IMG/VR virus record: IMGVR_UViG_3300037488_001080
Location: 1-23,356 of that record
Source: a virus
Strand: one strand, 5' to 3'
Length of the DNA stretch: 23,356 nucleotides
Shown: positions 4,876 through 23,356 of the stretch, in pieces
Numbering within the stretch: position 1 is the first letter of the stretch
How the letters are laid out: each line of letters opens with the position of its first letter
Position numbers and translations under genes: made by a program
The notes under the pieces: generated by a model
The model's input: only the letters and a program-made list of their open reading frames with translations
Databases searched by the model: none
What the model was told of the DNA's origin: nothing

Positions 4876-6021
4876 ATGGGAATAAAACATTTAATTCAGG
4901 AAAATCCTAATATGGATTTAAATTTGGTCCGTTTAATATCTAAACTTGACCCAAGCAAAACTAATAAACTAACTCCATTTATGGTAAAAGTTTTTAAAAA
5001 AAGAATGGATGAATTTGAAAAAGAAGTCTCTCAAGAGCACGGCATTTATTCAAGATATGAATATGTTAATAGTAAGATGAGTGATGCAAGTGGTTTTGAA
5101 AAATTAATATTAACTTGGGTTATAGATCAATTTAGGGTGGAAAATATTGAAATCTTAAAAGAATTTAATGAGGTTTTGGATAAAGGTTTGGTAGATCAAA
5201 ATGACATATCTAAATACGAAAATTTTGAAGAAATTACAAATCAATTGTCGGTCGCTAAAACAAGAGATTTATTAAAGAAATCTAGAAAAGAAATCTCTGT
5301 TGTCTATGAAGATGATGAAATTATGATGCTTAAACCATTATCTTTTGAGGCATCTTTGAAATATGGTGCTGGAACAAAATGGTGTACAGCAATGAAAAAT
5401 GAACCTGAATATTTTTATAGATACTCTAAAAATGGTATTTTGATCTATCTTATTAATAAAGAAACCGGTAGAAAATTTGGGTGTCATTCGGAAAGATTTG
5501 ATAATAATAGAGTTCAAATCTTTAATGAGATTGATCAGGTTATTGATTCCTTCCACATGGGTTTACCATATGAAAAATTAACTATCTTAATGGATTTAAT
5601 GGATTCAGTAAAACATGGTGTTAATTCAGATTTATTTAGTGAAGAGGAAAAAAGTAAGTATGGGTTAAGAGTGAATAAATATCCGGTAGATGAAATATCA
5701 GATGTGGTAAATGAAATAATGGATATGCCAAATGAAGAAATACCAGTGAATGAAGAATTACCAAGATTAATGCCAAGATTGAACCGATTAATCCCAATGC
5801 CGGATAGAGAAATGAGAATAATGGAAGACCCAATGGTGGAAGATCAAGGACCGATAGGAATTGAATACAATATGCCTGTACCTGATAGAATGTTAATGAG
5901 AGAGATTCAAAAAGAAATTGATTCCATTATGGTTCTTGATCGTGCGGGAGCTTTCGCTCATCTTGAAAATGAAGAAGGTGACACATTACCAGGATTAGAT
6001 TACGAAGATAAACAAGGATAA
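4876..6021 (+). CDS. Large phage protein with YGAxTKWCTA core (paralog of 14569-15465)
   Basis: A 381-aa protein of a family I cannot name. A helical N-terminal region (1-140) precedes the conserved core. The core reads VVYEDDEIMMLKPLSFEAS (142-160), then LKYGAGTKWCTA (161-172), then FYRYSKNGILIYLINK (180-195). The same pattern recurs in the gene at 14569, so this is a true domain; C170, W169, Y163 and K168 are invariant between the two. The tail (about 255-381) is low-complexity, rich in Pro, Met and Glu, with repeated short blocks such as PRLMPRLNRL, and looks disordered. The gene has its own leader after the RNA-ligase terminator. The tight KWCT motif suggests a catalytic or ligand-binding cysteine, but no function is known to me. 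Confidence 0.8.
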   Translation: MGIKHLIQENPNMDLNLVRLISKLDPSKTNKLTPFMVKVFKKRMDEFEKEVSQEHGIYSRYEYVNSKMSDASGFEKLILTWVIDQFRVENIEILKEFNEVLDKGLVDQNDISKYENFEEITNQLSVAKTRDLLKKSRKEISVVYEDDEIMMLKPLSFEASLKYGAGTKWCTAMKNEPEYFYRYSKNGILIYLINKETGRKFGCHSERFDNNRVQIFNEIDQVIDSFHMGLPYEKLTILMDLMDSVKHGVNSDLFSEEEKSKYGLRVNKYPVDEISDVVNEIMDMPNEEIPVNEELPRLMPRLNRLIPMPDREMRIMEDPMVEDQGPIGIEYNMPVPDRMLMREIQKEIDSIMVLDRAGAFAHLENEEGDTLPGLDYEDKQG

Positions 6022-6631: not shown

Positions 6632-8488
6632 ATGGGAAAAATTATTGGAATTGACTTAGGTACAACAAACTCTTGTGTAGCCGTTATGGAAGGGAATGAA
6701 CCGGTAGTTATAACAAATAACGAAGGTAAACGAACAACACCATCTGTTATCGGATTCATTAAAGATGGAGAAAGAAAGATTGGAGATCCGGCTAAACGAC
6801 AAGCGGTAACCAATCCTGAAAAAACCGTACATTCAATTAAACGATTTATGGGAACAAGTTTTAACGAATCTAAGGGTGAGGTAAAGAAAGTTCCTTATAA
6901 AGTTGTAAAGGGAGATGGTGGATCACCAAGAGTGGACATTGATAAACGACAGTATTCTCCACAAGAACTCTCGGCTATGGTTTTACAAAAAATGAAACAA
7001 ACTGCTGAGGATTATTTAGGTGAGACAGTTACTGAAGCGGTTATTACCGTACCGGCATATTTTAATGACGCTCAACGACAAGCGACTAAAGAGGCGGGTG
7101 AGATTGCGGGATTGGAAGTTAAACGTATTATCAACGAACCAACGGCAGCGGCATTGGCATATGGGTTAGATAAGATGTCTAAAGATATGGTAGTGGTTGT
7201 ATTTGACTGTGGTGGTGGTACACATGACGTTTCTATCCTTGAATTAGGTGATGGAGTATTTGAGGTATTATCTACCGATGGAGATACTCACTTAGGTGGT
7301 GATGACTTTGATCAGGTTATTATTGAATGGTTGGCAAATGAGTTCAAAGATGAGAATGGAATTGATGCTACCAAAGATCCAATGGCGTTACAACGTTTAC
7401 GAGAAGCGGCAGAAAAGGCAAAAGTTGAATTATCTTCAACCTCATCAACGGAAATTAATTTACCGTATTTGATGCCGGTAGATGGGATGCCAAAACACTT
7501 GGTTAGAACTTTATCAAAATCTAAATTTGAACAACTGGCAGATTCATTAATCAAACGAACTATTGAACCTTGTAAGACAGCATTGAAAAATGCTAAGATG
7601 GATGTGTCTGATGTTGATGAAATTATCTTAGTTGGAGGTACAACAAGAATTCCGGCGATCCAAGAAGCGGTTAAACAATTCTTTGGTAAGGAACCATCCA
7701 AAGGAGTTAACCCTGATGAGGTAGTTGCTTTAGGCGCGGCGATCCAAGGTGGTGTACTTGCTGGTGATGTTAAAGATGTCTTATTATTAGATGTGACACC
7801 ATTATCTTTAGGTATTGAAACTATGGGTGGGGTTATGACTAAATTGATTGATGCTAACACCACGATCCCAACTAAAAAATCTCAGGTGTTCTCAACGGCA
7901 GTAGATAATCAACCAACAGTTGAGATCCACGTACTTCAGGGAGAACGAGCAATGGCAAAAGATAATAAAACCATTGGTAAGTTCAATTTAGATGGTGTTC
8001 CACCAGCGATGAGAGGTGTTCCACAAATTGAGGTTACGTTTGATATTGATGCGAATGGTATTATTAATGTTTCCGCAATGGATAAAGGAACAAACAAACA
8101 ACAAACAATTCGTATTGAAGCGTCCTCAGGTTTATCAAAAGAAGAAATTGAGAAAATGAAACAAGAAGCTGAGTTAAATGCCGAACAGGATAAAAAACTC
8201 AGAGAAGATGCTGAAGTTCTAAACAGGGCTGATGGTACAATCTTCCAAACTGAGAAGTCAATCAAAGATTTGGAAGATAAGTTAACTGAAGAACAAAAGA
8301 GTGAACTTGATGGATTACTTGGAACGTTAAAAGAATCTTATGCAAAAAAAGACATTGAGAAGATTAATCAAGATATTGAAAATCTTAATAGTCAGTTCCA
8401 CCATATTAGTCAATCATTGTACGAACAAACTACAACTGAAGAAGGTAATGATGCTCCGTCTGATGTTGAATTTGAAGAAGTACTTTAA
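6632..8488 (+). CDS. dnaK: Chaperone DnaK (Hsp70), Bacteroidota type
   Basis: A full-length 618-aa Hsp70. The ATPase domain (1 to about 370) starts [16 protein letters not shown] and has [17 protein letters not shown] (140-156), [12 protein letters not shown] and an intact [10 protein letters not shown]. The linker [15 protein letters not shown] joins a complete substrate-binding domain ([27 protein letters not shown]) and a helical lid ending SDVEFEEVL. Sequence stretches such as [23 protein letters not shown] and [15 protein letters not shown] match what I recall of Bacteroidota DnaK, pointing to acquisition from a host lineage. In the phosphate-2 loop, the usual DLGGGTFD reads DCGGGTHD (192-199): C193 and H198 replace conserved residues, but T197 is kept. 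No DnaJ or GrpE gene is nearby, so host co-chaperones would be needed. It folds or refolds client proteins in the cytoplasm using ATP; it may serve virion assembly. Confidence 0.97.
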
Positions 8489-9271: not shown

Positions 9272-9985
9272 ATGGAGTTAAACAGATATCTAACAATAGT
9301 TATTCCCTGTAAAAATGAGAAAGATATAATCCTTAAAACTTTGGATTTATTAAACTATCAACAAGACATTAATGATGTTAAAGTAATAATTTGTGATGCG
9401 TCGGATGATGAAATTACTAGACCTGAACTTGAAAATAGAGTGGGTTTACAGAATGATATATTTGATTTACAGGTCATTAATGGTGGATTACCTGGGGTTG
9501 CCAGAAATATGGGATTTAAATATGTTAAAACACCTTATGTTTTATTCATGGATGCGGATGTATTCCTTCTTGACCCGAAAACAATTAAAAGATCATTTTT
9601 GAAAGCTCAACAAAAAGAACTTGATTTGGTTACCACTAAGTTCAGGAGTGATAATGGTAAATACAATTACATTTATAAAACATTTGATATACTACAAATG
9701 ATATCAAAATGGTCAACACCATTTTGTTTGGGTGGGTTTATGTTAGTTAAATCTAAAACTTTTAAAAAGTTAGGTGGGTTTGATGAAGAAATAAAAGTTG
9801 CGGAAGATTATCAGTTCTCAAAACAAATTAAACCAAGAAAATTCGGAAGAATAAATAATGTGGTTTTTACACCACCAAGAAGGTTTGAAAACAAAGGGTT
9901 GATCTATATGACAAAAATATTTTTAGGGTCATTCTTTAATCACAATAACAAATCTTATTTCACTAAAGATAAAAATTACTGGTAA
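9272..9985 (+). CDS. Family 2 glycosyltransferase
   Basis: A 237-aa GT-A fold enzyme. It opens LTIVIPCKNEKDII (7-20), the nucleotide-sugar binding strand. CDASDDE follows (41-47), then NGGLPGVARNMGFKYVKTPY (70-89) and the metal-binding DxD as MDADVF (93-98). An acceptor-side AEDYQFSKQ motif comes later. The protein ends soon after, with no membrane anchor, and is at the short end for the family. The sugar donor and acceptor cannot be read from sequence. It overlaps the next gene by one base (TAATG), so the two are translationally coupled. The pair lies between two copies of the same terminator. The upstream element TATTTATT (9258-9265) may drive it. In a phage, a role in modifying host or virion glycans is the natural inference. 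Confidence 0.88.
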   Translation: MELNRYLTIVIPCKNEKDIILKTLDLLNYQQDINDVKVIICDASDDEITRPELENRVGLQNDIFDLQVINGGLPGVARNMGFKYVKTPYVLFMDADVFLLDPKTIKRSFLKAQQKELDLVTTKFRSDNGKYNYIYKTFDILQMISKWSTPFCLGGFMLVKSKTFKKLGGFDEEIKVAEDYQFSKQIKPRKFGRINNVVFTPPRRFENKGLIYMTKIFLGSFFNHNNKSYFTKDKNYW

Positions 9986-10698
9986 TGAAAAAATGGAAAA
10001 CAGTGATCATGAGTGATCTACATTTAGGGGCTCGTCATTCACAAACAGAAAAAATATTAAAGTTTTTTGAAGAAAATGAAATGGAAACATTAATATTAAA
10101 TGGGGATATAATTGATGGATGGGCAATCAAAAGTGGGGGTAAATGGAGTAACGACTGTACAAAGATTATAAGAAAGATTATTAAAATATCTGAAGGAGAT
10201 ACTAAGGTAGTTTATGTTAGAGGTAATCATGATGACTTCTTAAAAGATTTTATACCCTTCAAATTAAATAATATTGAAATTATTAGGATGTATAATCATG
10301 TTGGTGTTGACGGTAGAAACTACTATTGTTTTCATGGTGATGTCTTGGATTTTGTGATAATGAAAGCGAGATGGTTAGCGGTTATTGGTGGATGGTCTTA
10401 TGATTTTGTTATCAAGATGAATACAATTTACAATAAAATAAGAAAGATGTTTAACCTCCAATACCATTCGTTGGCAAATGACATAAAACAATCTGTCAAA
10501 GGTGCAATTAATTTCGTGTCTGATTTTGAAACAGGAGCGAAAGGTCTAACCAAAGAAAAAGGATTTGACGTTGCGGTTTGTGGTCATATCCACCAACCAA
10601 AGTTAGAAATTGATTATATGAACTCAGGGGATTTTTGTGAAAATTCAACGTGTCTTGTTGAAGATAGGAAAGGTAAATGGAAAATATTAAGTGTATAA
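9985..10698 (+). CDS. LpxH-like metallophosphoesterase (UDP-2,3-diacylglucosamine diphosphatase family)
   Basis: A 237-aa calcineurin-like phosphoesterase with all metal motifs in order: SDLHLG (D11, H13), NGDIIDGW (D41), RGNHDDF (N81, H82), FHGDVLDF (H117) and CGHIHQPK (H201, H203). The HGD-x-x-D and GHIHxP arrangement, with a helical insert at about 125-180, is that of LpxH and related proteins. LpxH removes UMP from UDP-2,3-diacylglucosamine in lipid A synthesis. Many LpxH-like proteins in Bacteroidota have other or unknown substrates, so the exact reaction is not assured. It is coupled by TAATG to the glycosyltransferase upstream, suggesting that the two act on the same lipid- or nucleotide-linked sugar. 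A terminator follows. It is unrelated in subfamily to the edge-cut phosphoesterase at the left of the window. Confidence 0.85.
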   Translation: MKKWKTVIMSDLHLGARHSQTEKILKFFEENEMETLILNGDIIDGWAIKSGGKWSNDCTKIIRKIIKISEGDTKVVYVRGNHDDFLKDFIPFKLNNIEIIRMYNHVGVDGRNYYCFHGDVLDFVIMKARWLAVIGGWSYDFVIKMNTIYNKIRKMFNLQYHSLANDIKQSVKGAINFVSDFETGAKGLTKEKGFDVAVCGHIHQPKLEIDYMNSGDFCENSTCLVEDRKGKWKILSV

Positions 10699-10710
10699 CT
10701 AATGTTGATA

Positions 10711-10740
10711 GAAACCCTCACAGAAATGTGGGGGTTTTTT
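10711..10740 (+). terminator. Terminator, copy 2 of the 27-bp duplicated hairpin
   Basis: This has the same 10-bp stem and 6-nt loop as the copy at 9189 (stem arms 10712-10721 and 10728-10737), here followed by TTTTTT in total. It is a strong Rho-independent terminator 13 nt after the LpxH-like gene. Confidence 0.85.
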
Positions 10741-10774
10741 GACTATATGATTTTTATTTATTATTTTTACATAA

Positions 10775-11056
10775 ATGAACTCAAACAAGAAAATATTAAT
10801 TAAAAAGTTTCTTTCCTTACACTATAGTAATTTAGAGTATAGTCCTAAACGAATGATGTATTATAAGGAAGGTAATGTTTATTTTGAGTATCAACCAAAA
10901 GATGAAATAATATTTTTGAATTTTAAGTTAATGGTTGAACCAATGATAAGAACACTTGGAATTGATGATAAAGATCCTGTCATACTAACAGAAGTTTATA
11001 AAGTGATGGAAGAATGGTTTGAGGAGAAGTTTAATATAATAGGTGCAATAACATAA
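10775..11056 (+). CDS. Hypothetical protein, 93 aa
   Basis: The product begins MNSNKKILIKKFLSLHYSNLEYSP with a basic helix. A beta pair (MYYKEGNVYFEYQPKDEIIFLN) and a C-terminal helix (LTEVYKVMEEWFEEKF) follow. There are no cysteines, signal peptide or catalytic motif. It is the first gene after a strong terminator, preceded by TATTTATT (10755-10762), so it probably opens a new transcription unit running at least to 13643. The family is not recognised. It ends 3 nt before the HAD gene. Confidence 0.65.
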   Translation: MNSNKKILIKKFLSLHYSNLEYSPKRMMYYKEGNVYFEYQPKDEIIFLNFKLMVEPMIRTLGIDDKDPVILTEVYKVMEEWFEEKFNIIGAIT

Positions 11057-11059
11057 AGT

Positions 11060-11644
11060 ATGAAAGTATTATTTTTAGATAATGATGGTGTAATTTGTCT
11101 CTCTAATAATTGGGGTGGACGAACAAAGAAATGGGCGAAATATCGTTCTGAAAATCCTGAGTCCTCTCCAAATCTAAAAGAGGGTCCGGTGTCTGTACGA
11201 TTTGATGACTTTGACCAAAAGGCAATTAAAATCCTTAATGAGATTATTGAAGAGACGGGATGTGAAATTGTTGTAAGTTCCGATTGGAAGCTACACGCAA
11301 CTCTTGAAGAACTTGGAGAATACTATGAATTACATGGGATAAGTAAAAAACCAATTGCGTTAACACCAAATATACAAGATTGTAAAGTTCATGGTAATTT
11401 ATTTATATGGTCACCAAGATGGGATTTAGAACAAACACGAACTATTGAAATCAGACAATATCTTCAGGATCATCCTGAGGTTACACATTGGGTTTCTGTT
11501 GATGATTTAAATATGGGTAAAATTGGTGAGGATTGGAAAGATGTATGGGCGATAGATAATTTTGTTTTAACACCAAGATCAAATGAGGGAATTAAACAAA
11601 GTGGTGTTAAAGAAAAAATATTAAAGTTTTTGAAGGATGATTAA
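11060..11644 (+). CDS. HAD phosphatase of the Swiss Army Knife RNA-repair type
   Basis: A 194-aa HAD-fold protein. Motif I is FLDNDGVI (D7 nucleophile, D9 acid/base), motif II VVSSDWK (S73 or S74), and the acidic motif is VSVDDLNM (D148, D149), preceded by RTIEIRQYLQDHPEVTHW. This set matches the small HAD domain (HAD_SAK family) found fused to or beside RNA-end-healing and ligase domains in bacteria and phages. There it is predicted to remove phosphates from RNA ends. It lacks a kinase or ligase domain of its own, and the RNA ligase and cREC protein lie about 6-8 kb upstream, so an RNA-repair role is a reasonable inference. The last 8 bases overlap the start of a tiny gene (ATGATTAA). Confidence 0.82.
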   Translation: MKVLFLDNDGVICLSNNWGGRTKKWAKYRSENPESSPNLKEGPVSVRFDDFDQKAIKILNEIIEETGCEIVVSSDWKLHATLEELGEYYELHGISKKPIALTPNIQDCKVHGNLFIWSPRWDLEQTRTIEIRQYLQDHPEVTHWVSVDDLNMGKIGEDWKDVWAIDNFVLTPRSNEGIKQSGVKEKILKFLKDD

Positions 11645-12992: not shown

Positions 12993-13105
12993 TGTTAATT
13001 GAAGGTATATTACATTTGGTTGGGATTGGTTTTTTACTTATTGTTATGCCAATATGTTGGATTATAAAAAACTATAAAAATAAAAAATATGGTCATAGAA
13101 ATTAA
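12989..13105 (+). CDS. Tiny single-span membrane protein, 38 aa
   Basis: The frame ATG 12989 to TAA 13103-13105 starts in an ATGA overlap with the previous gene and runs 17 nt into the next. The peptide has a hydrophobic stretch from residue 3 to 26 (LIEGILHLVGIGFLLIVM, then PICWII) and a basic tail (KNYKNKKYGHRN). This is a clear transmembrane segment with positive charges predicted on the cytoplasmic side. The coupled junction and the coherent hydrophobic profile argue that it is real. Small phage membrane peptides of this kind include superinfection-exclusion and lysis-control factors, but nothing here decides between roles. Confidence 0.55.
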   Translation: MMLIEGILHLVGIGFLLIVMPICWIIKNYKNKKYGHRN

Positions 13106-13643
13106 TAATTTTTTATCGTACGAAGAATGTGATAATTTAATAAGTTTAGCATCAGATACTTTTGATGAAGTTGGTGTTCTTGGTGAGAGTATTGAAGGGT
13201 ATAGAGTTGCAAAAGGAGCTTGGTTAGATGAAGAACATGGGGATGTTGTTATAAAATATAGAGACCTTATTTCTGAGACGACCAAACTACCAAAAATTAA
13301 CATGGAAAGTATTCATGTTGTTAAATATAGTGTTGGTGAAGAATATAAAGATCATCATGATTTTTTTCATCCTGGTGAAGAATACTATGAGGATGAGGTA
13401 AATAGAGGTGGACAAAGATTAAAAACGGCATTGGTTTACTTAAATGATGATTTTGAAGGTGGTGAAACAAATTTCCCAAATTTAAATATTAAAGTTGATC
13501 CTAAAAAAGGTAAACTTGTATTGTGGGACAACATTAAAGATGATGGTTCTTTAGATTACGATAGCCTTCATGCTGGATTACCCGTAAAAAGTGGTTATAA
13601 GTATATTGCGGTAATTTGGATTAGAGAGAATGAATTTTATTAA
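13089..13643 (+). CDS. Prolyl-4-hydroxylase-like 2-oxoglutarate/Fe(II) oxygenase
   Basis: A 184-aa double-stranded beta-helix dioxygenase of the P4H alpha-subunit type. Residues 5-20 (INNFLSYEECDNLISL) match the usual N-terminal entry helix. The iron site is H89-x-D91 in YKDHHDFFHPG, with distal H161 in SLHAGLPV. K171 in SGYKYIAVIWIRE is the expected 2-oxoglutarate carboxylate ligand. TALVYLNDDFEGGETNFP (113-130) and GKLVLWDN (141-148) are the core strands. The family hydroxylates proline or other protein residues, coupling to decarboxylation of 2-oxoglutarate. The target could be a host translation factor or a virion protein, but this is open. The start overlaps the tiny membrane gene by 17 nt. 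All the catalytic residues are present. Confidence 0.88.
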   Translation: MVIEINNFLSYEECDNLISLASDTFDEVGVLGESIEGYRVAKGAWLDEEHGDVVIKYRDLISETTKLPKINMESIHVVKYSVGEEYKDHHDFFHPGEEYYEDEVNRGGQRLKTALVYLNDDFEGGETNFPNLNIKVDPKKGKLVLWDNIKDDGSLDYDSLHAGLPVKSGYKYIAVIWIRENEFY

Positions 13644-13933: not shown

Positions 13934-14172
13934 AAAAGTTAATACTAATTACTTTAGTTGGGATGGTATTGTTTTCTTGTAATAGAAAAGAATACAAATA
14001 TGAAATCCACGGGAAAGTTTATGTCCCAACATCTGGTGTGAATCCAATGCATGATGCAATATGGTATACCGACACCATTAATTTTGATGGTGATACCATT
14101 TATTATTTTAATAGTAATGGGTCAGAGGTGAGAATTAAACCTCCATATATCTTAAAAGATAACTCAAAATGA
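13930..14172 (+). CDS. Small lipoprotein, 80 aa
   Basis: The N-terminus MKKLILITLVGMVLFSCNRKE is a textbook lipoprotein signal: two lysines, a hydrophobic core and the lipobox LFSC with C17 as the lipidation site. The mature part is short, polar and beta-prone (YEIHGKVYVPTSGVNP ... DGDTIYYFNSNG). It would be anchored in the inner or outer membrane facing the periplasm or cell surface. Phage-encoded lipoproteins of this size are known in superinfection exclusion and receptor blocking, which makes that a possible role, not a demonstrated one. ATGA overlaps occur at both ends (13930 and 14169), placing it inside a coupled operon behind the promoter at 13647. Confidence 0.75.
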   Translation: MKKLILITLVGMVLFSCNRKEYKYEIHGKVYVPTSGVNPMHDAIWYTDTINFDGDTIYYFNSNGSEVRIKPPYILKDNSK

Positions 14173-14582
14173 AAATAGGTATAACCTGTTCCTGTTTTGA
14201 TTTATTTCACGCGGGTCACGTAAAAATGTTGGAGGAAGCAAAAACACAGTGTGATTATTTAATAATTGCTTTACAGACAGACCCAACAATTGATAGACCT
14301 GAAAAGAATAAACCGGTACAATCGGTTGTTGAAAGATACATCCAACTGAAAGGATGTAAGTTTGTTGATGAAATTATCCCATACGAAACAGAAAAAGATT
14401 TGGAGGATATTTTTAAAACATTAAAATTAGATGTAAGGATTATAGGTGAGGATTATAAAGGAAAAGATTTCACCGCAAAACAAATATGTTTAGATAGGAG
14501 TATTGTGTTATACTACAATGAAAGAAAACACAATTTCTCAAGTACAGAACTTAAAAAAAGAATAAACAATGGCAAAAATTGA
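14169..14582 (+). CDS. Cytidylyltransferase-like protein (TagD/HldE-C type)
   Basis: A 137-aa nucleotidyltransferase of the HxGH family. It opens KIGITCSCFDLFHAGHVKML, with H14-x-x-H17 as the nucleotide-binding signature. RYIQLKGCKFVDEIIPY (about 56-72) follows, and NFSSTELKKRI near the end corresponds to the C-terminal S-T-T box. Its size and motifs match glycerol-3-phosphate cytidylyltransferase and related enzymes. These join CTP (or another NTP) to a phosphorylated polyol or sugar, releasing pyrophosphate. The product would feed glycan or phospholipid-type modification, in keeping with the glycosyltransferases further right, although the exact substrate cannot be told. It is coupled to the lipoprotein gene by ATGA and overlaps the next gene by 14 nt. 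Confidence 0.82.
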   Translation: MKIGITCSCFDLFHAGHVKMLEEAKTQCDYLIIALQTDPTIDRPEKNKPVQSVVERYIQLKGCKFVDEIIPYETEKDLEDIFKTLKLDVRIIGEDYKGKDFTAKQICLDRSIVLYYNERKHNFSSTELKKRINNGKN

Positions 14583-15465
14583 TGAACTAAGAAAAAAATA
14601 CCCAAACGTTGTAATGTCTGTCGCTGATAGATTTTTTGAAGGCGATAAAACACCAACCAAAAAATATCTTGAATTTATGTTTAAGATGTGGTCAACAAGA
14701 GGCAAGAGACCAGTTGAAGGAGTTTCTTCTCAACAATATGTTAAAATAGTTAATGAGTTTGATCAGTTGTTACCATATATTCAAAATAAAGACATATATA
14801 GTGGTGAATATAAAACTATGATGCAGTTATTTAGGGTGGTTGAAAATGCTAAAACATTAAAAGAGGAAAATGAGTTTGTTCGTGAAGATCATGTTGATGT
14901 TTTAATTGATAATGAAGATTATCTTTTAATTAGCCCTTTAACTTTAAAGGGATCCATAAAATATGGTGCGAATACTAAATGGTGTACTGCCAGTAAATCA
15001 AGTTCTTATCACTTTACAGGTTACACTAGAGATGGTTATTTGTTTTATTTGATCTCAAAAAAAGAAAGAGGTAAAAATCATGATAAGGTTGCGTTTTATT
15101 CTCGTGGTGGTAAAAATGAACACTTGACCACGTCTTACGCAATTTATAATCAATTTGATACTGAGATTAACGAGCAAAAATTTATTTTGAATGGTTGGAC
15201 TATGTTTGATCTATTTGAAATAATGACTAAAATAAGAGTTTATGCATATGAAAAGTATGTAATCCAAAAGGCTAAAAGTGATGTTGAAAAAACTGTAAAT
15301 ATTCTGAAGTCAGTTAATTTAGATGAATTTTTACAACAAGTTAATTTGTTGGAGAAATACGGAGAAAGTGGAAAAATAGAAGGAAAAGATGAATTGGAAA
15401 AAGTAATTCAAACTTTAAGTAAAAAAACAGAAGATTTATTTGGCAAATCTAAAATTAATGAGTAG
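14569..15465 (+). CDS. Phage protein with YGAxTKWCTA core (paralog of 4876-6021)
   Basis: A 298-aa protein sharing a core with the gene at 4876. VLIDNEDYLLISPLTLKGS (111-129) leads into IKYGANTKWCTA (130-141), then YTRDGYLFYLISKK (152-165). C139 corresponds to C170 of the paralog. After the core, this copy has DKVAFYSRGG and SYAIYNQFDTEI, suggesting a longer beta region, then a helical C-terminus with heptad character. It lacks the Pro/Met/Glu-rich tail of the other copy. The N-terminal region (1-100) is helical and divergent. The function is unknown to me. It is translated from within the cytidylyltransferase gene end (14-nt overlap). Its stop codon forms part of the next promoter-like element. 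Confidence 0.78.
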   Translation: MAKIDELRKKYPNVVMSVADRFFEGDKTPTKKYLEFMFKMWSTRGKRPVEGVSSQQYVKIVNEFDQLLPYIQNKDIYSGEYKTMMQLFRVVENAKTLKEENEFVREDHVDVLIDNEDYLLISPLTLKGSIKYGANTKWCTASKSSSYHFTGYTRDGYLFYLISKKERGKNHDKVAFYSRGGKNEHLTTSYAIYNQFDTEINEQKFILNGWTMFDLFEIMTKIRVYAYEKYVIQKAKSDVEKTVNILKSVNLDEFLQQVNLLEKYGESGKIEGKDELEKVIQTLSKKTEDLFGKSKINE

Positions 15466-17120: not shown

Positions 17121-17369
17121 ATGAAAGGTACGTTAATATATTTTGAACCTGATGAAGAAACAGGTTATAAAGGTAATTGGGTGATACAGATACCTACTGA
17201 AAAACCTTACAATAATACATTCTCACTTTCTGATGAAAGTATGAAATGGATTAAAAAAAATAATCCACCAAAAAAAATGGATGTTGAGTTTACGGTAATT
17301 TGTTATTGTCATTATGATGAAAAGACAAATACTGCTAGCCACGCATTAGTTGCCACAATAAAACAATAA
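17121..17369 (+). CDS. Hypothetical protein, 82 aa
   Basis: Starts on the base after the previous stop codon. The sequence reads MKGTLIYFEPDEETGYKGNWVIQI, then a strand-rich stretch with SDESMKWIKKNN in the middle. It closes with VEFTVICYCHYDEKTNTASHALVATIKQ, where the CYCHY cluster gives two cysteines and a histidine that might bind a metal. The alternating strands suggest a small beta-barrel. No family is recognised. It lies upstream of the glycan cluster with a 12-nt gap and may be co-transcribed with it. Confidence 0.65.
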   Translation: MKGTLIYFEPDEETGYKGNWVIQIPTEKPYNNTFSLSDESMKWIKKNNPPKKMDVEFTVICYCHYDEKTNTASHALVATIKQ

Positions 17370-17381
17370 ATAAAAAAATTA

Positions 17382-18008
17382 ATGGAAAATTACAAAATAC
17401 TTGAAAATGGTTTAATAAAACAAAAATCTATCGTTAATAAAATCCAAACGTATGATACAAAATACGTGGATGAAAGATATAATCAATACGGTGAAAAAGG
17501 ACCTCAAATGGCTGGTATCCGACTTGGATATTTAGTTGGGACTTTAGGTTATTGGCCACAATCCATACTAGATATTGGATATGGTAATGGTGATTTTTTA
17601 AAGGTCTGTAAAGGTGTTATTGAGTCATATGGTAATGATGTTTCAGGATATCCTGTACCTGAAGGTGTTACATACACTGATAATATATTTGATAAACATT
17701 ACGAGGTGATCTCATTCTTTGATGTATTGGAACATTTTGAGGAAATTGATTTTGTAAAAGATTTGGATTGTAATTACGTCTACATTAGTTTACCTTGGTG
17801 TCACAACTTTAGTGAAGAATGGTTTATGAATTGGAAACATAGAAGACCTGACGAGCATTTGTGGCATTTTAATGAAAAGTCAATTGAGAAATTCTTCAAT
17901 GAAATGGGTTATGATATGGTTGATTATTCAAATGTTGAAGATTTAATAAGAGTTTCTGGTGAAGAATATCCTAACATTTTAACTTGTATCTTTAAGAAAA
18001 GAAAATAA
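17382..18008 (+). CDS. Class I SAM-dependent methyltransferase
   Basis: A 208-aa Rossmann-type methyltransferase. SILDIGYGNGDFLKVC (61-76) is motif I, the SAM-binding glycine loop. VISFFDVLEHFEEI (109-122) is the usual acidic/aromatic segment of Methyltransf_23-like enzymes. VYISLPW (133-139) is strand 5. HRRPDEHLWHFNEKSIEKFF (153-172) is the C-terminal signature seen in sugar- and polyketide-cluster methyltransferases. The target is unknown; a sugar or lipid hydroxyl is likely from the neighbours. It ends as TAATG with the next gene (18008) and opens the glycan cluster. A nucleic-acid base methyltransferase is unlikely, as there is no NPPY or PC motif. Confidence 0.85.
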   Translation: MENYKILENGLIKQKSIVNKIQTYDTKYVDERYNQYGEKGPQMAGIRLGYLVGTLGYWPQSILDIGYGNGDFLKVCKGVIESYGNDVSGYPVPEGVTYTDNIFDKHYEVISFFDVLEHFEEIDFVKDLDCNYVYISLPWCHNFSEEWFMNWKHRRPDEHLWHFNEKSIEKFFNEMGYDMVDYSNVEDLIRVSGEEYPNILTCIFKKRK

Positions 18009-18937
18009 TGAGATTTGGGTTTAAAATATCAGGTTGTTTTGGAGATGTGTTATACTCAACTCCGGTTTTAAAATATTTAAGTAAATGTCATGGTGATAAA
18101 TTAGATATTGAAACTAATTATCCGGACGTATTTAAAAATAACCCATATGCTGGAATAATTTATAATCCTGAGGAAGGTCAAATAATGCCTCACGATCAAA
18201 TTTTTTATGATTGTAATGGTCATAATTTTGGTGATATACAAAAACAAATAAGAAAAATACATTTGACCGATTATTGGTCAACACATTTAGGTTTCATATT
18301 ATCTCCTGAAGAAAAAACTTTGGAATTTTATCCGGATCCTTTGGATGTTGAAATTCCTAAAGACAAATACATTGTTATTAATCCTTCTAAAACTTGGGAA
18401 TGTAGAACTTGGTCAAAAGAAAATTGGGAAAGATTAACTGAAATGATATTAGAGTTAGGAATTAAAGTTGTGGTAACTGGACAGGATATAACTTATGGTG
18501 ATAATGATAAAAAGGGATCTATAGAAGTTTCTAATCCAAATGTAATTAATTTAGTAAATAAATTAAATCTATCCCAACTTTGGCATTTGGTTAATAATAG
18601 TTTATTAACAATAACTATGAACGCTGGATTACTACCTTTCGCGGGCACTACTGACTCAAATATTTTACAATTAGGTGGTGCTATTGATCCATATTATAGA
18701 ACACCATATAGAAATGGTAGTCAGGATTACAAACACAAGTTTGTTGGTGGATCTTGTAAATTATTCTGTCAATCAGATATGAAATATAACACAATGGATG
18801 ATCAAAAAATAACAAGATGGAATGGTTATAGGTCGCCTGGATGTTATGAAAATAAAAAATCATATGAATGTCATGCATCCGTTAATGGAGCGTTTAATGA
18901 GGTATTAGAATTTTATAAAAAAAATATTTATGAATAA
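18008..18937 (+). CDS. GT9-like (heptosyltransferase-family) glycosyltransferase
   Basis: A 309-aa GT-B type protein. It starts GFKISGCFGDVLYSTPVLKYL, matching the N-terminal G-x-x-GD-x-x-x-TP-x-x-x-x-L signature of ADP-heptose:LPS heptosyltransferases and their relatives. KYIVINPSKTWECRTWSKEN (about 120-139) matches the start of the second domain. QLWHLVNNSLLTITMNAGLL (190-209) corresponds to the sugar-nucleotide region, where the canonical S-N-D-S-G-x-x-H is changed. Unusual extra Cys (GGSCKLFCQS, SPGCYENKKSYECH) may bind a metal or form a structural cluster, as in the phage and environmental members with a C-terminal extension. The donor and acceptor cannot be assigned. It begins by TAATG coupling and overlaps the next gene by 8 nt. 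Confidence 0.8.
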   Translation: MRFGFKISGCFGDVLYSTPVLKYLSKCHGDKLDIETNYPDVFKNNPYAGIIYNPEEGQIMPHDQIFYDCNGHNFGDIQKQIRKIHLTDYWSTHLGFILSPEEKTLEFYPDPLDVEIPKDKYIVINPSKTWECRTWSKENWERLTEMILELGIKVVVTGQDITYGDNDKKGSIEVSNPNVINLVNKLNLSQLWHLVNNSLLTITMNAGLLPFAGTTDSNILQLGGAIDPYYRTPYRNGSQDYKHKFVGGSCKLFCQSDMKYNTMDDQKITRWNGYRSPGCYENKKSYECHASVNGAFNEVLEFYKKNIYE

Positions 18938-19892
18938 TGAAGATCTAATATACGTTACGGCCAATTGCCCAACTGAAGAGCAAGAAAAAAAACTTGAAGA
19001 ATGTATAAATTCATTAGAAAAAATTGGATATGATATCGCGTTAGTATCACATACGCATATACCGTTAAACATTCAAAAAAAATGTAAGTATTATATATAT
19101 GACCACTTCAATGACATATCTGAAGATGAAAATTTATTAAGTGACATAAATTTTTATATACCCAAAGGTATAATAGTGTCAAAGTATTTTCAAAAATATT
19201 TTTATGGTTTTGCTGTTTTTAGAATGATAAATTTAGCGTGTAATTTGGCAATAAATTTTGGTTATAAAAAATTACACTATATTGAATATGATTGTGTGGT
19301 TAATAATGGTTCATTCATTAAAGAAAATAGCAAATTGTTAGAAACTTATGATTCTATTTTATACACAACTAATGGTAATAAAAATGATGGGTTAATAGGT
19401 GGTATTCACTCATGTTTAACTAATAAGATACCAGAGTTATTTAAAAAATATGACAGAGAAAATATTGAAAATTTATTAAAAGAAAATCAAAATAATTGCG
19501 TTGAAGATATAACAAAATTATCTTTTTTAAATTCGGGTAATGTTTTATTTAAAAATGGTAATGAATTAACGGAGGATATTATAACGATAGGATATAAATT
19601 TAAAAATAGGAATGTACATTATACGTTATATTATGACAATGAAAGTGAAAAAATAAATATTATTTATAATAATGTTTCGCAATCCGATCAAAAAATAATG
19701 TTAATAGTTAATAATAATAAAGTTATTAATTTTATATCTAAAATTAATTTTTGGAATATAGAAATGGTGGGTAACATAAATGAGATACGGAATGTTAAGG
19801 TTTTTATTGATGATAGGATATCTTATGAAAAGAATTTCAATGATGAAAATATACAAACTTTTAAAAATAACTCTTATATTATAAAAAAATAA
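18930..19892 (+). CDS. GT-A-type glycosyltransferase-like protein with C-terminal beta module
   Basis: A 320-aa protein. It opens LIYVTANCPTEEQEKKLEECINSLEKIGYDIALVSH (6-41). The motif YGFAVFRMINLACNLAINFGYKKLHYIEYDC (92-122) follows, where Y-D-C (120-122) sits where a GT-A DxD would be, reduced to a single Asp. LHYIEYDCVV, LIGGIHS and SGNVLFKNG are further matches to environmental phage glycosyltransferases. The last ~90 residues are a separate beta-rich module that resembles the end of the GT8-like protein at 22036. A loss of the second Asp may mean metal-independent or inactive chemistry. It overlaps the GT9-like gene by 8 nt and precedes the DegT-like gene by 2 nt. The family assignment is moderate. 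Confidence 0.68.
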   Translation: MNNEDLIYVTANCPTEEQEKKLEECINSLEKIGYDIALVSHTHIPLNIQKKCKYYIYDHFNDISEDENLLSDINFYIPKGIIVSKYFQKYFYGFAVFRMINLACNLAINFGYKKLHYIEYDCVVNNGSFIKENSKLLETYDSILYTTNGNKNDGLIGGIHSCLTNKIPELFKKYDRENIENLLKENQNNCVEDITKLSFLNSGNVLFKNGNELTEDIITIGYKFKNRNVHYTLYYDNESEKINIIYNNVSQSDQKIMLIVNNNKVINFISKINFWNIEMVGNINEIRNVKVFIDDRISYEKNFNDENIQTFKNNSYIIKK

Positions 19893-19894
19893 TT

Positions 19895-20542
19895 ATGTCA
19901 ATAAAAAACGTTCACGATATCACCAGGGAATTTGAGGAAGAGTTATCAAAGTATACTGGGGCACCATATGTAATTGCATTAGATAATATGAGTAACGCAA
20001 TATTTTTAGCGTTGTACTATGAAAAAAATATAAAAAAAACTTTAATTTCAGATAAAATAGATTGTCCGTCAAAAACATATCCTTCAGTTCCTTGTGAAAT
20101 TATTCATGCGGGATTAAAGGTTAATTTTACACCTGTTGAGGGTGAAACAATTAAAGGTGCGTACCAACTGTCACCAAGTAATGTTTGGGATTCTGCTTTA
20201 AGATTTACTGCGGATATGTATATTCCAAAATCATATATGTGTCTTTCATTTACTGGTCCATATAAAACATTAAAATTAAGCAAAGGTGGTGCAATTTTAA
20301 CTGATGATCATAAAGCAATGTTATGGTTTAAACGAGCAAGATTTAGTGGAAGAAGAGAATGTTCTTATCATGATGATAATTTTGATATGTTGGGGTGGAA
20401 TTTTTATATGATGCCGGAACTTTCTGCTAGAGGATTATTAATGATGTCACAATTTTATGATTTAAAAGGTAATAAACGTCATATGGATGATTTGGAATTA
20501 CCTTATCCGGATTTATCAAAATTTAAAATTTATACTGAATAA
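19895..20542 (+). CDS. Minimal DegT/DnrJ/EryC1-like PLP protein
   Basis: A 215-aa protein with the N-terminal and catalytic part of a DegT-type sugar aminotransferase: FEEELSKYTGAPYVIALDNMSNAI (13-36), VWDSALRFTADM (98-109; D99 fits the PLP-ring Asp) and CLSFTGPYKTLKLSKGGAILTDD (116-138), where K124 is the probable PLP-binding lysine. A full DegT is about 360-400 aa; this lacks the C-terminal domain that normally completes the dimer and substrate site, and the text ends cleanly in a stop without frameshift signs. It could still bind PLP, but activity is uncertain; it may be a regulator or a sugar-binding remnant. Sugar-amino transfer would fit the acyltransferase next door. Confidence 0.72.
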   Translation: MSIKNVHDITREFEEELSKYTGAPYVIALDNMSNAIFLALYYEKNIKKTLISDKIDCPSKTYPSVPCEIIHAGLKVNFTPVEGETIKGAYQLSPSNVWDSALRFTADMYIPKSYMCLSFTGPYKTLKLSKGGAILTDDHKAMLWFKRARFSGRRECSYHDDNFDMLGWNFYMMPELSARGLLMMSQFYDLKGNKRHMDDLELPYPDLSKFKIYTE

Positions 20543-20543
20543 T

Positions 20544-21086
20544 ATGTTTTACACAAAAGAAGAATTAAATGAAATGGGATTTAAATCCATTGGTGAAAAT
20601 GTTCTAATATCAGACAAGGCATCAATTTATGGTGTTAAAAATATTGAAGTTGGATCAAATGTAAGAATTGACGATTTTTGTATTATAAGTGCTGGTGAAG
20701 GAGGAATAAAAATTGGTAATTATGTTCACATAGCGTGTTATGCTCACTTGATTGGTTCGGGTCAAATTATCGTTGAAGATCATGCACAAATTTCCGGTAA
20801 AGTTTCAATCTATTCATCGTCTGATGATTTTTCGGGTGACTATTTAGTTGGACCTACAGTACCTAAGGATTTTACAAATGTTAAAAGTTTGACAGTACAT
20901 CTTAAAAAATATGTTATATTGGGATGTAATGTTGTGGTATTACCTGGTGTTACAATTGGGGAAGGAACTGCGATTGGAGCTTTAAGTTTAGTTTCAAAAA
21001 GTTTACCTGAATATGGTATATATGGAGGTAATCCGTTAAGATTAATAAAAGAAAGAACAAAAGGAATGCAAAAATATGAGATATAA
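20544..21086 (+). CDS. Hexapeptide-repeat (LbH) acyltransferase
   Basis: A 180-aa left-handed beta-helix acyltransferase. I chose ATG 20544 (MFYTKEELNEMGFKSIGENV...); the frame is open upstream to 20487 but only in sequence overlapping the DegT-like gene. Hexapeptide-type turns repeat through residues 20-150 (IYGVKNIEVGSNVRIDD, IKIGNYVHIACYAHLIG, VILGCNVVVLPGVTIGEG). It ends IYGGNPLRLIKERTKGM, the normal close of this fold. The probable catalytic histidine is in HIACYAHL. It transfers acetyl or acyl from CoA to a sugar hydroxyl or amine; LPS and capsule O-acetyltransferases have the same shape. It starts 1 nt after the DegT-like gene and overlaps the ketoacyl synthase gene by 11 nt, so these three are tightly coupled. 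Confidence 0.85.
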   Translation: MFYTKEELNEMGFKSIGENVLISDKASIYGVKNIEVGSNVRIDDFCIISAGEGGIKIGNYVHIACYAHLIGSGQIIVEDHAQISGKVSIYSSSDDFSGDYLVGPTVPKDFTNVKSLTVHLKKYVILGCNVVVLPGVTIGEGTAIGALSLVSKSLPEYGIYGGNPLRLIKERTKGMQKYEI

Positions 21087-22020
21087 TAATGTGGGTATTT
21101 TGGGTACAGGTTCATACCTACCTCCAAAAATTATAACTAATCAAAAAATAGAAAAAACTATAGATACAACACATGAATGGATTAATAACAAGTTAGGTAT
21201 TAATGAACGTAGAGTAGTTGAGGGTGAATTACCATCGGACATTGGATATAAATCAGCTTTAAATGCGTTGGAATCCGCAAATCTAACAATTAATGATATA
21301 GATTTAATAATTGTTGCAACATCAAGTCCTGAACAGATATCTCCATCAACTGCGTGTGTAATTCACAATAAATTTAATATTGAAAAAAATATTCCGGCCT
21401 TTGATATTAATGCAGTTTGTTCCGGATTTGTTTATGCTGTTAATTTGGTTGCTCCTCTTATTAGTTTTGGTGTGTATAAAAATGTTTTAATTATTGCGAC
21501 TGAGGCATATTCTAAAGTTACTAATTGGAATGATAAACATTGTGTATTTTTTGGTGATGGTGCTGGTGCGGTAATCATAGGATCCTCAAGTGACGGGTGG
21601 ATTTCATGTGAGAATAGCGCTAATGGTAAAGATACTGGTATGACAGGATTTAATTTACCAATAGGAGGGCCATTTACTATGAAAGGCAAAGAAGTTTGGG
21701 ATCAAGCAATTAAAGTTATACCTGAATCGGTTAAAAATATCTTAAAAATTTCAAATGTTGATATTAATGATGTTAAAATGGTGGTCCCTCATCAACCAAG
21801 CATTAATATACTTAAAATAATTGCGGAAGATCTGAAGATCCCAATGTCAAAGGTTAAGACCGTAATGGATAAATATGCAAATATTGCGGGAGCTTCAGTT
21901 CCAATTGCATTAGATGATGCGGTTAAGAATAATGAAATAAATAAAGATGATATAATCATCTTAACCGCTATTGGTTCTGGTTGGACATGGGGGTCAACAA
22001 TATTAAAATGGGTAAAATAA
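21076..22020 (+). CDS. FabH-like beta-ketoacyl-ACP synthase III
   Basis: A 314-aa thiolase-fold enzyme with the complete KAS III triad: C115 in FDINAVCSGFVYA, H239 in VVPHQPS and N269 in DKYANIAGASVPIAL. It also keeps FFGDGAGAVIIGSS (158-171), GTGSYLPPKIITNQ (10-23) and the final GSGWTWGSTILKW. KAS III normally condenses an acyl-CoA with malonyl-ACP to start fatty acid or polyketide chains. In glycan clusters, relatives build short acyl groups that are attached to amino-sugars. The setting between an LbH acyltransferase and a glycosyltransferase favours the latter, although no acyl carrier protein is seen. It is very unusual for a phage. It overlaps the acyltransferase by 11 nt. Confidence 0.92.
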   Translation: MRYNNVGILGTGSYLPPKIITNQKIEKTIDTTHEWINNKLGINERRVVEGELPSDIGYKSALNALESANLTINDIDLIIVATSSPEQISPSTACVIHNKFNIEKNIPAFDINAVCSGFVYAVNLVAPLISFGVYKNVLIIATEAYSKVTNWNDKHCVFFGDGAGAVIIGSSSDGWISCENSANGKDTGMTGFNLPIGGPFTMKGKEVWDQAIKVIPESVKNILKISNVDINDVKMVVPHQPSINILKIIAEDLKIPMSKVKTVMDKYANIAGASVPIALDDAVKNNEINKDDIIILTAIGSGWTWGSTILKWVK

Positions 22021-22035
22021 TTAAAAAATAAAATT

Positions 22036-23181
22036 ATGAATAATAAAATATCAATTGTACTATTTTGTACAAAAAATTATCTTAATAATGCTTTGAGTTT
22101 AATAAAATCTTTGAATTTATTTCACGATAATCTTGAATTTTACTTATATACTCTAAATTTTAATTATGAATCTGACATTTATAATGTTAAAACGGTTTAC
22201 ATTTATGAAAGTAGGATTGAGGATAATATGTCATTTCATGGGAATAAGAATGACGTAACAAATAAAAATATGTTTAAATCGGTATTCTTTAAAAGTCAAG
22301 TTATTTTAGATTCTATTGATACTTTAAAATTAAATGAAGCGATATATGTTGATTCCGACATAATGCCAACCGGTGACATATCTGAACTATTTAGTTTTTT
22401 TAATCAGGTTGAAGATTATCCGATAATCCAACAAGGGATATTTGAATATCAAATTAACTATGGTAGGGGAAATCCATTTCATAATGGTGGATTTGATGAA
22501 ACTAATATTTTGGAATATCCATTAATGTTTAAACATCATATAGACATTAAATTTAGATCTCATTATTCCGTTGCATCGGTTATGGTGTATAATAAAAATT
22601 GTAGACAATTTATTGCTGAAAATAATTGGATGAATAATTTGGCTTTTAATATGCATATTGATGATATTAAATATTATTATCCTTTTAGTGATGAAACAAC
22701 AATAAATGTTTTATTATGGAAATACGGACACAAGAATAGATTACCACTGATGCAAATGAATATTGATGATATTGGTAACGTAAAAGAGTTATATGAATCA
22801 AATTACGAAAACGAAAAAGAGATTACTTCATATGTGAGAGTACCAAGTAAAAGTGAAAGAAAACACAAATTATTTTTTCATGGTGCAAAAGGTGAGTTAT
22901 CAAACGAGATATATGAGTTACAATGTAAAATGTTTAATACCAGAATAGATTATAATGAAAATAAATATTATATTTTATCTAACATTAATTTTGACAGAGA
23001 ATTAAATATTAATTTTTATGATGGTGATGAGTTAATTTATCAATCAACAAACCATATAAGAAAGGGATTTGAATATTGGTTTAGTCCTAGTAGAAAATTT
23101 GTTGATGTTGAAAATTTAAAGGTTAAAATACTTGATGACGGTAAATTAATATTCAAAGATGGTGAATTTAAAAGAGTTTAA
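22036..23181 (+). CDS. GT8-like glycosyltransferase with C-terminal beta module
   Basis: A 381-aa protein. It opens KISIVLFCTKNYLNNALSLIKSL (4-26), with a GT-A start. AIYVDSDIMPTGDISELFSFF (102-122) carries the DxD (D106-x-D108), as in GT8/glycogenin-like enzymes. HYSVASVMVYNKNCRQFI and DETTINVLLWKYG are further matches, followed by LFFHGAKG (an HG-x-K-like metal/phosphate motif). The last ~80 residues are a beta-rich module resembling the end of the protein at 18930. It uses a nucleotide sugar and an unknown acceptor. It begins 15 nt after the ketoacyl synthase and overlaps the edge-cut gene by 23 nt, so it belongs to the cluster. Confidence 0.8.
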   Translation: MNNKISIVLFCTKNYLNNALSLIKSLNLFHDNLEFYLYTLNFNYESDIYNVKTVYIYESRIEDNMSFHGNKNDVTNKNMFKSVFFKSQVILDSIDTLKLNEAIYVDSDIMPTGDISELFSFFNQVEDYPIIQQGIFEYQINYGRGNPFHNGGFDETNILEYPLMFKHHIDIKFRSHYSVASVMVYNKNCRQFIAENNWMNNLAFNMHIDDIKYYYPFSDETTINVLLWKYGHKNRLPLMQMNIDDIGNVKELYESNYENEKEITSYVRVPSKSERKHKLFFHGAKGELSNEIYELQCKMFNTRIDYNENKYYILSNINFDRELNINFYDGDELIYQSTNHIRKGFEYWFSPSRKFVDVENLKVKILDDGKLIFKDGEFKRV

Positions 23182-23356
23182 AATAATAAGATATAATTAC
23201 GTTTTATCTAATGAGGAATTAACAATTCAGTTATGGGATAAAATGAATTTTGAGGAAACTAGATGGGCGGTTAAACTAACTTTGGAAGGTGTAAATGATT
23301 CTTCTTCAGGTGATCAATATCCTGCTTGGGATATGTTTTTTCTTGAAACAAAATTG
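23159..23356 (+). CDS. Unknown protein, 3' end outside window
   Basis: An open frame starting at ATG 23159, inside the end of the GT8-like gene and in a different frame, runs without stop to the right edge. The visible 66 residues begin MVNLKEFKIIRYNYVLSNEEL and contain TIQLWDKMNFEETRWAVKL, then SSGDQYPAWDMFFLETKL. The strand-rich, aromatic character suggests a beta-sandwich, possibly a carbohydrate-binding type, but too little is present to assign a family. The 23-nt overlap is in line with the coupling seen elsewhere in the cluster; a later start cannot be excluded. Confidence 0.55.
   Translation, partial: MVNLKEFKIIRYNYVLSNEELTIQLWDKMNFEETRWAVKLTLEGVNDSSSGDQYPAWDMFFLETKL

Follow-up and report, generated by a model that had tools for sequence, protein, structure and literature searches.

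The closest described systems to the locus reported here are bacterial O-antigen genes and phage-borne sugar or fatty-acid genes. In O-polysaccharide loci of Flavobacterium psychrophilum, two ketoacyl synthases (wfpC and wfpE), a reductase (wfpF), and an acyl carrier protein (ACP) are the predicted makers of an amino-sugar 3,5-dihydroxyhexanoyl group (PMC6519341). Sugar clusters have been published for jumbo phages (PMC7824862, PMC9123017), and virion glycosylation in mycobacteriophages is cited by PMC12619734. Rhodobacteraceae prophages carry fabG-acpP-fabF, read as lipid metabolism by authors who state that fabH occurs in none of their phages (PMC8224337), and fabG, fabF, and fabZ are reported from viromes (PMC10653327). 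In the open-licence PMC literature we found no phage beta-ketoacyl-ACP synthase III (KAS III, the FabH family) serving sugar acylation. What is known, then, comprises phage sugar clusters, phage fabF/fabG/acpP, and bacterial amino-sugar ketoacyl synthases, and what appears to be new is a phage KAS III beside putative acylated-sugar genes. This KAS III lies in a seven-gene cluster on IMG/VR record IMGVR_UViG_3300037488_001080, linear viral DNA of 23,356 bases, the whole of which is called the window below. Reasoning from gene families and gene order, we propose, with a probability of roughly 0.6, that the phage makes a short acyl or hydroxyacyl group from host malonyl-ACP and places it on an amino-deoxysugar for a glycan of the virion or the host surface.

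The seven open reading frames (ORFs) fill positions 17382-23181 on the plus strand, with neighbors that overlap or lie a few bases apart, so an earlier note made from the sequence alone was right to describe seven adjacent, coupled genes. The core of the cluster (19895–22020) consists of a compact DegT/DnrJ-type sugar aminotransferase of 215 aa (19895-20542), an LbH hexapeptide acyltransferase of 180 aa (20544-21086), and the KAS III (21076-22020). Upstream lie a SAM methyltransferase (17382-18008), a GT9-like glycosyltransferase (18008-18937), and a glycosyltransferase with a GT-A fold and a C-terminal beta part (18930-19892), and downstream lies a GT8-like glycosyltransferase (22036-23181). 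The methyltransferase and GT9 genes overlap by 1 base, GT9 and GT-A by 8, and LbH and KAS III by 11, while gaps of 2, 1 (with the LbH start at 20544), and 15 bases separate GT-A from DegT, DegT from LbH, and KAS III from GT8. The identities that the note had given the seven genes hold by family profile (GT8 just below its cut-off) or, for the GT-A protein, by the fold of a model. The same order of compact DegT, LbH, and KAS III recurs in five viral contigs (L085, L086, L087, L088, and L106), three of which are distinct, as L086, L088, and L106 have an identical KAS III; identities to the window are 68-73% for DegT, 81-83% for LbH, and 70-73% for KAS III. Comparing the window, L085, L087, and L106 gave dN/dS values of 0.06-0.12 for KAS III and 0.04-0.08 for LbH, with synonymous change near saturation in pairs that include the window; for DegT a single pair was computed (0.16), with L106 and L087 left out. 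KAS III and LbH are under purifying selection, and because low dN/dS is joined by a gene order that recurs in relatives, the cluster is not a chance assembly.

Like this locus, the R-group genes of F. psychrophilum combine a ketoacyl synthase with an acyltransferase (predicted to place an N-acyl group on an amino-dideoxysugar) in a member of the Bacteroidota, and a FabG-like reductase is present in many phage relatives. The F. psychrophilum locus, however, is a bacterial O-antigen locus with its own ACP, whereas the window is without a reductase, the phage DegT is of the compact form, and neither ACP nor Wzx turned up in the phages. Nearer in arrangement are the bacterial loci L152 (Ignavibacteriales), L189, and L215 (Bacteroidales), in which DegT, LbH, KAS III, and a short-chain dehydrogenase/reductase (SDR) follow in order and the LbH is 38-47% identical to that of the window; unlike the window, these loci have a full-length DegT (373-386 aa) and the SDR, and they lie in bacterial genomes. 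Similarly, PglE/PglD and the NeuD-type pathway are built on an aminotransferase plus N-acetyltransferase pair. The window shares with PglE/PglD the pairing and order of a DegT and a hexapeptide acyltransferase, but its DegT is compact, and its LbH, whose partner is KAS III, fits none of the PglD-type profiles built for this analysis. Among phages, the capsular or lipopolysaccharide (LPS) clusters of jumbo phages and cyanophages resemble the present ones in having several glycosyltransferases, sugar-modifying enzymes, 2-oxoglutarate (2OG) oxygenases, and cupins in large phages (PMC7824862); 'ketoacyl', 'aminotransferase', and 'acyl carrier' are absent from the main text of that paper. The cultured Flavobacterium phage immuto (NC_055915) has a compact DegT 71% identical to that of the window, followed by an acyltransferase, amid glycosyltransferases and a methyltransferase; its acyltransferase, in contrast, is NeuD-like, no KAS III is annotated in the 30 kb covered, and the phage is not among the 25 KAS III-matching phage records discussed below. 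The Rhodobacteraceae prophages likewise bring type II fatty-acid synthesis genes into phages, but theirs are elongation genes with an ACP.

The KAS III exceeds the curated cut-offs of TIGR00747 (NCBIfam fabH; 304.5 vs 292.1 bits) and PRK09352 (322.1 vs 249), and scores 95.5 bits for ACP_syn_III_C against a cut-off of 26.6. A scan from one sequence retrieved one other phage on three contigs, while a scan from a two-sequence alignment, which located loci via two short patterns, retrieved at least 51 viral contigs that together with the window give 41 distinct proteins (identical rows are counted once here and in the compact-DegT counts, and L002-L004, the same phage as L108, L110, and L111, are omitted). 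The Cys-His-Asn triad (C115, H239, and N269 in the window) is intact in all 41 aligned proteins, although for the Cys, which falls inside the search pattern FDINAVC, this conservation is partly built in; the His and Asn lie outside the patterns. The nearest relatives are viral (70-73% identical), and the best bacterial match reaches 47% (50% with another aligner), about the level of the viral group's most distant members. In a tree of 121 rows (41 viral and 80 bacterial KAS III, the latter the best 80 of 331), 38 viral sequences form one group with support 98, while three distant viral sequences fall outside, one of them joining a bacterial sequence. A more careful, unrooted tree, in which the 38 sequences named from the first tree (window included) were tested against 41 of 79 bacterial ones (the distant L131, L132, and L134 and the second copy L184_4 having been left out), splits the two sets with support 100/99. 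The bacterial sequences had been picked by phage-conserved patterns, and the phage-only grouping holds within the reach of those patterns.

Other KAS III searches contributed less. A single KAS III run against genome contigs matched its pattern in 33 stretches, none encoding a relative. With the KAS III as query, bacterial genome G021 scored 3.7e-93, near the 1.7e-97 of the most distant phage record; the limit of 1e-90, set to shed ordinary bacterial KAS III, is weak evidence, and the result was not used. The phages collection held 25 records with a KAS III match, none of which reached 60% identity: 10 from faecal phages, 5 from phages of Listeria, 3 each from those of Helicobacter and Enterococcus, and 2 each from those of Staphylococcus and Acinetobacter. 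Most of these are presumably bacterial fabH or carry-over, and the set was left unused.

The aminotransferase scores 42.7 bits for PF01041 against a gathering cut-off of 19.8, but its length departs from that typical of DegT/DnrJ/EryC1/StrS enzymes, with 215 aa as opposed to 357-421 aa in the solved chains listed. Searches covered 402 bacterial genomes, the viral contigs, and the phages collection, where 7 records matched. In viral contigs, 494 stretches encode a relative, of which the best 80 (71-91% identical) were kept, giving 43 distinct sequences with the window; 80 of these 81 loci (42 of the 43 distinct) encode proteins of 212-217 aa, and the remaining one was called at 321 aa by the ORF caller. 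None of 397 bacterial genomes (from the family of the L157 Flavobacterium genome) contained a compact DegT at 1e-10, a query that in the control matched nine of nine phage records and did not match the single bacterial genome included, and a DegT profile run on five further bacterial genomes gave three weak matches, all in frames of 364-399 aa. Aligned to 3bn1, the protein is missing a segment from its interior and the greater part of the C-terminal region. The lysine motif is kept in all 43 distinct sequences, and K124 and D99 are invariant in the 15 aligned; in the SF...K...GG context we take the lysine to be the one that binds pyridoxal phosphate (PLP), and we assume the usual DegT role for the preceding Asp. 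By sequence, then, this is a compact variant of the family and not a typical member, and to our knowledge it would be the smallest form of this aminotransferase family. An AlphaFold2 (AF2) model (pLDDT 85) matched sugar aminotransferases best, with a top Z of 17.9 and a root-mean-square deviation (rmsd) of 3.2 over 197 residues aligned to a stretch of 299. We considered perosamine as the sugar, as GDP-perosamine synthase tops two comparisons, but in the third it ties with the C3-aminotransferases WlaRF/WlaRG and others; such model-based matches would not settle the sugar or the position of amination. Compact DegTs up to 91% identical are found in phages with differing neighbor genes (viral loci L005-L084), and the picture suggests that the compact DegT moves as a cassette.

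In 39 of the 43 distinct loci the compact DegT has an acyltransferase of LbH or PglD type no more than three genes away, compared with 20 of 336 random ORFs; the PglD-type profile was built from proteins beside loci that the LbH profile missed, and the LbH profile alone gives 30 of 43 within three genes and 22 at the next position downstream. In 27 loci the acyltransferase is directly downstream of the DegT (23 of these pairs overlapping by 4 bases), and 26 of these partners are best described as PglD-type and one, that of the window, as LbH. In L075, L078, and phage immuto, NCBIfam finds the partner NeuD-like along almost the whole profile, at scores slightly below cut-off. An earlier count of an acyltransferase-like cluster directly downstream in 64 loci was dropped, as that cluster also held glycosyltransferases.

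The LbH of the window scores 42.8 bits for PF00132 (Hexapep) against a cut-off of 27. Its first ATG in the ORF list is at 20487, but 20544, one base after the DegT stop, is the likelier start, since the 19 extra residues are missing in the L085 and L087 relatives; the LbH proteins of L085, L087, and L106 start at the Met equivalent to 20544. Profiles do not make it a NeuD/PglD protein, as TIGR03570 gives 43.8 against 160.8 and matches at the profile end only. In the window, transfer of a longer acyl group, produced with the help of KAS III, may have replaced acetyl transfer. Among the loci fetched for other genes, to which the comparison was confined, the LbH is 81-83% identical to viral proteins from L085, L087, and L106, 53% to one further viral protein, 47% and 44% to bacterial L152 and L189, at most 41% to the LbH of the other phage cluster type, and 38% to bacterial L215. 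Because L152 and L189 are thus closer to it than other phage clusters are, the window LbH may plausibly have come from bacteria at an earlier time.

Within six genes of the 38 grouped viral KAS III, nine of which are on loci cut inside that distance, we found LbH in 30, compact DegT in 24, a FabG-like SDR in 24, PhyH in 23, a WbuC cupin in 21, GMD in 20, and full-length DegT in 8, with family names that rest on single members. LbH together with some DegT occurs in 26 of the 38; near bacterial KAS III the pair occurs in 6 of 26, 0 of 49, and 0 of 4 loci in three subsets, in a BLAST search whose phage protein queries favor phage loci. As the pairing of LbH and KAS III is found in window-type phages and in bacterial L152 and L189 alike, it supports the view that the two would work together. 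Judged by these neighborhoods, many phages seem to encode the greater part of a pathway leading to an acylated amino-deoxyhexose. Where GMD adjoins a short DegT the sugar could be perosamine-like; a DegT type of about 199 aa, 30-33% identical to the compact DegT, is found in the GMD-containing clusters. In L003, GMD scores 381 bits (cut-off 415), the SDR matches 3-oxoacyl-ACP reductase best, far below its cut-off, and the cupin exceeds the WbuC cut-off; FdtA/QdtA had been considered for this cupin, which NCBIfam places in the WbuC family. PhyH, an FkbM methyltransferase, GT11, and an epimerase were identified in L091, and PhyH might hydroxylate the acyl chain or the sugar. The stretch 6872-12623 of L091, like similar loci, brings together a WbuC cupin, an FkbM methyltransferase, KAS III, a FabG-like SDR, LbH, PhyH, a 199-aa DegT, and GMD. 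On L087, a 206-kb viral contig, an IMP dehydrogenase/GMP reductase-domain protein (PF00478) is encoded at 9979-11010, two genes past KAS III.

In the route we propose, the compact DegT, given its family, PLP lysine, and predicted fold, would aminate a host-derived nucleotide-linked keto-deoxysugar. The KAS III, whose family and triad are as described, would use acetyl-CoA, or a primer like it, and malonyl-ACP from the host to form a beta-ketoacyl-ACP, and a reductase would convert this to the 3-hydroxyacyl form; in many relatives that could be the FabG-like SDR near KAS III, and in window-type phages presumably a host enzyme. The LbH, judged by its place between DegT and KAS III, would then move the acyl group onto the amino sugar, a role suggested because other compact-DegT loci have a PglD/NeuD-type acyltransferase in that place. 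Finally, the GT9, GT-A, and GT8 proteins would attach the acylated and other sugars, and the methyltransferase would cap one of them. The glycan's most likely target is phage proteins in the cytosol, virion proteins first, with a host surface glycan as the next possibility; we favor a cytosolic target because a flippase (PF01943) and an initiating phosphoglycosyl transferase (PF02397) were each found in none of 20 phage records, which may be fragments, while the same two profiles matched 13 and 9 of 14 genomes as controls.

Several observations weigh against this proposal. An ACP profile matched none of 15 records, the window and the five window-type contigs included, and the reductase profile PF13561 matched five of the 15, none of which is the window or a window-type contig; the records may be fragments, which makes these absences weak. 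A GMD-type dehydratase is missing in four of the five window-type contigs, and no sugar dehydratase appeared among 30 window ORFs scanned with Pfam. As the window has no ACP, FabG-like reductase, or sugar dehydratase, host enzymes or genes on the missing part would be needed, so that the note's reading of the genes as a phage set for an acylated amino-sugar is supported, but its claim that the set looks able to build the sugar is overstated. The best curated profile for the LbH is that of the O-acetyltransferase WbbJ, at 75.4 against a cut-off of 243, so that N-acylation is a proposed activity; four of the 43 compact-DegT loci have no acyltransferase within three genes. We know of no activity for a DegT of this size, which is far shorter than the solved aminotransferases. 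As to phage origin, the four window-type contigs other than L087, one of them 166 kb long, gave no match to the terminase profile PF03237, a PHROG scan of 40 window ORFs confidently named no terminase, portal, capsid, or tail protein, and the lone virion-structural PHROG match (17121-17369, E 0.02) is too weak to count.

Nevertheless, the window probably comes from a large tailed phage with a Bacteroidota host. We suggest a Flavobacterium-like host because the SPFH protein of the window (phrog_200) matches that of Flavobacterium phage FL-1 (46% identical) and its DegT that of phage immuto. The alternative is that the window is a passing bacterial O-antigen island, as the earlier note suggested, or a contig of bacterial origin that was binned wrongly: the same activities stand together in bacterial loci, as the note's remark that such sets are normal in O-antigen loci would have it (L152, L189, and L215 fit, with a full-length DegT), the next relatives of the LbH after the viral ones are found there, and the PHROG scans of the window gave no clear virion gene. 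We hold this alternative to be very improbable. The viral KAS III group has support 100/99, PF03237 matches 9 of 19 related contigs and, among the five of window type, the 206-kb sister contig (G003, the same as L087), the GC content of KAS III (32.4%) matches that of the rest of the window (31.4%; the GT-A and GT8 genes are lower, at 22.3% and 24.4%), compact DegT is absent from the 397 genomes, and the window holds phage-type RNA ligase (phrog_968) and phosphoesterase (phrog_547) families. The note's phage setting is therefore borne out, by the virus record, the triad on a contig with a terminase match, and a KAS III that groups with viral sequences only, and its passing bacterial island is made unlikely. 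Of the checks it proposed, composition and phylogeny favor a phage for KAS III, the LbH has bacterial kin by identity next after the viral ones, and a terminase match came up on one of the five window-type contigs, with no hallmark gene confidently named in the window itself.

The functional alternatives differ in what the acyl group is for. The phage might instead remodel the host surface, passing the acylated sugar into LPS or capsule through the host's flippase and polymerase and so blocking superinfection or rival phages. This is how jumbo-phage and cyanophage sugar clusters are read in the literature (PMC7824862, PMC9123017), the bacterial loci with the same activities resemble O-antigen loci, and a GT2 protein at 9272 has weak GtrB-like matches (E 2e-5). 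Set against these points, the flippase and initiating transferase, absent from the 20 records (perhaps fragments), would have to be borrowed from the host, and we regard remodeling as possible but on the unlikely side. It is improbable that the KAS III itself acylates the sugar, leaving the LbH with another role. In antibiotic pathways some KAS III-like enzymes, such as CerJ, do act as sugar acyltransferases, and sugar genes surround the phage KAS III; however, all 41 proteins keep the Cys-His-Asn triad, a FabG-like SDR, expected for a beta-keto product, is near in 24 of 38, and 30 of 38 already have an LbH close by. Equally doubtful is a role of KAS III in phage-directed fatty-acid or membrane metabolism with no sugar acylation, the reading given to acpP-fabF-fabG in Rhodobacteraceae prophages (PMC8224337) and to fabG/fabF/fabZ in viromes (PMC10653327), since ACP was found in none of the 15 records (other fatty-acid genes were not searched systematically), and since LbH lies within six genes in 30 of the 38 KAS III clade members, most of which have some DegT as well.

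Beyond acylation of an amino-deoxysugar in the window, a wider proposal seems to us somewhat short of an even chance: large Bacteroidota phages would keep an acyl-sugar cassette consisting of a phage-specific KAS III lineage that would divert malonyl-ACP of the host to short hydroxyacyl groups, a DegT of about 215 aa, and exchangeable acyltransferases (PglD-type for acetyl transfer, or LbH with KAS III). Each phage would in this way carry, on its virion or its host, an acylated sugar peculiar to it, a fast-changing code of identity or shielding. If true, phages maintain a separate lineage of an enzyme that initiates fatty-acid synthesis and use it to decorate glycans, which goes beyond borrowing sugar genes, and infection is linked to host acyl metabolism; acylated sugars made to order may serve some phages as a coat for the particle or as a disguise for the host surface. 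Soluble proteins would suffice to test the claims on KAS III and compact DegT, and phage immuto, which is in culture, opens the glycan question to experiment.

The remaining genes of the cluster are assigned as follows. The methyltransferase, possibly acting on a sugar, belongs to PF13489 (Methyltransf_23; 46.3 bits, cut-off 27) and matches the methyltransferase family phrog_6564 at E 8e-14. GT9 exceeds the PF01075 cut-off (38 vs 22 bits) and has viral relatives, about 38% identical, in L010, L075, and L078-L084. The GT8-like protein falls just short of its family (PF01501, 21.9 vs 24.3 bits), and a DSD motif can be read in its sequence. For the GT-A protein no credible sequence family emerged by profile; Trm56 (19 vs 25) and PRK03958 were both considered and are below cut-off. 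Its AF2 model (pLDDT 90) is a GT-A glycosyltransferase fold plus a C-terminal addition, with GT-A matches reaching Z 15.4 and rmsd 2.7 over 163 residues in a fold search that barely covered the addition; H116, E119, and D121 are invariant in 15 of 15 aligned sequences. A C-terminal domain common to the GT-A and GT8 proteins found no support on comparison. The cluster is followed by an ORF cut by the record end (23159-23356, plus strand), of which only the start is present and which had no match in Pfam or PHROG.

Elsewhere in the window, a cytidylyltransferase-like protein (14169-14582, plus strand; PF01467, 60.7 bits, cut-off 21; phrog_7878, E 2e-37) might activate a sugar phosphate, as a context gene with a possible tie to the cluster. 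Its PHROG match is of heptose adenyltransferase type, and a 2OG-Fe(II) oxygenase (PF13640) is encoded at 13089-13643; both may take part in sugar metabolism. A full-length DnaK of 618 aa (6632-8488, plus strand) scores 953 bits for TIGR02350, which clears the cut-off of this dnaK equivalog family. Its top-ranked matches include DnaK proteins of uncultured phages with genomes of 484-735 kb, at 55-65% identity; records that look ordinary follow closely, and one further record counted at 80-90% identity is not among the matches listed, so that huge-phage kinship from DnaK is suggestive only; a megablast of the whole window against phages gave no match. A region is common to the proteins at 4876-6021 and 14569-15465 (34% over 93 aa, E 3e-15), each of which hits phrog_17056 as well as phrog_28193, two PHROG families of unknown function. 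A cyclic-phosphate processing receiver-domain protein (3006-3422; PF20274, 80.9 bits, cut-off 27), the RNA ligase (3697-4827; PF09414), and a HAD protein of RNA-repair type (11060-11644; PF18143) occur in the same window, a hint of an RNA-repair set.

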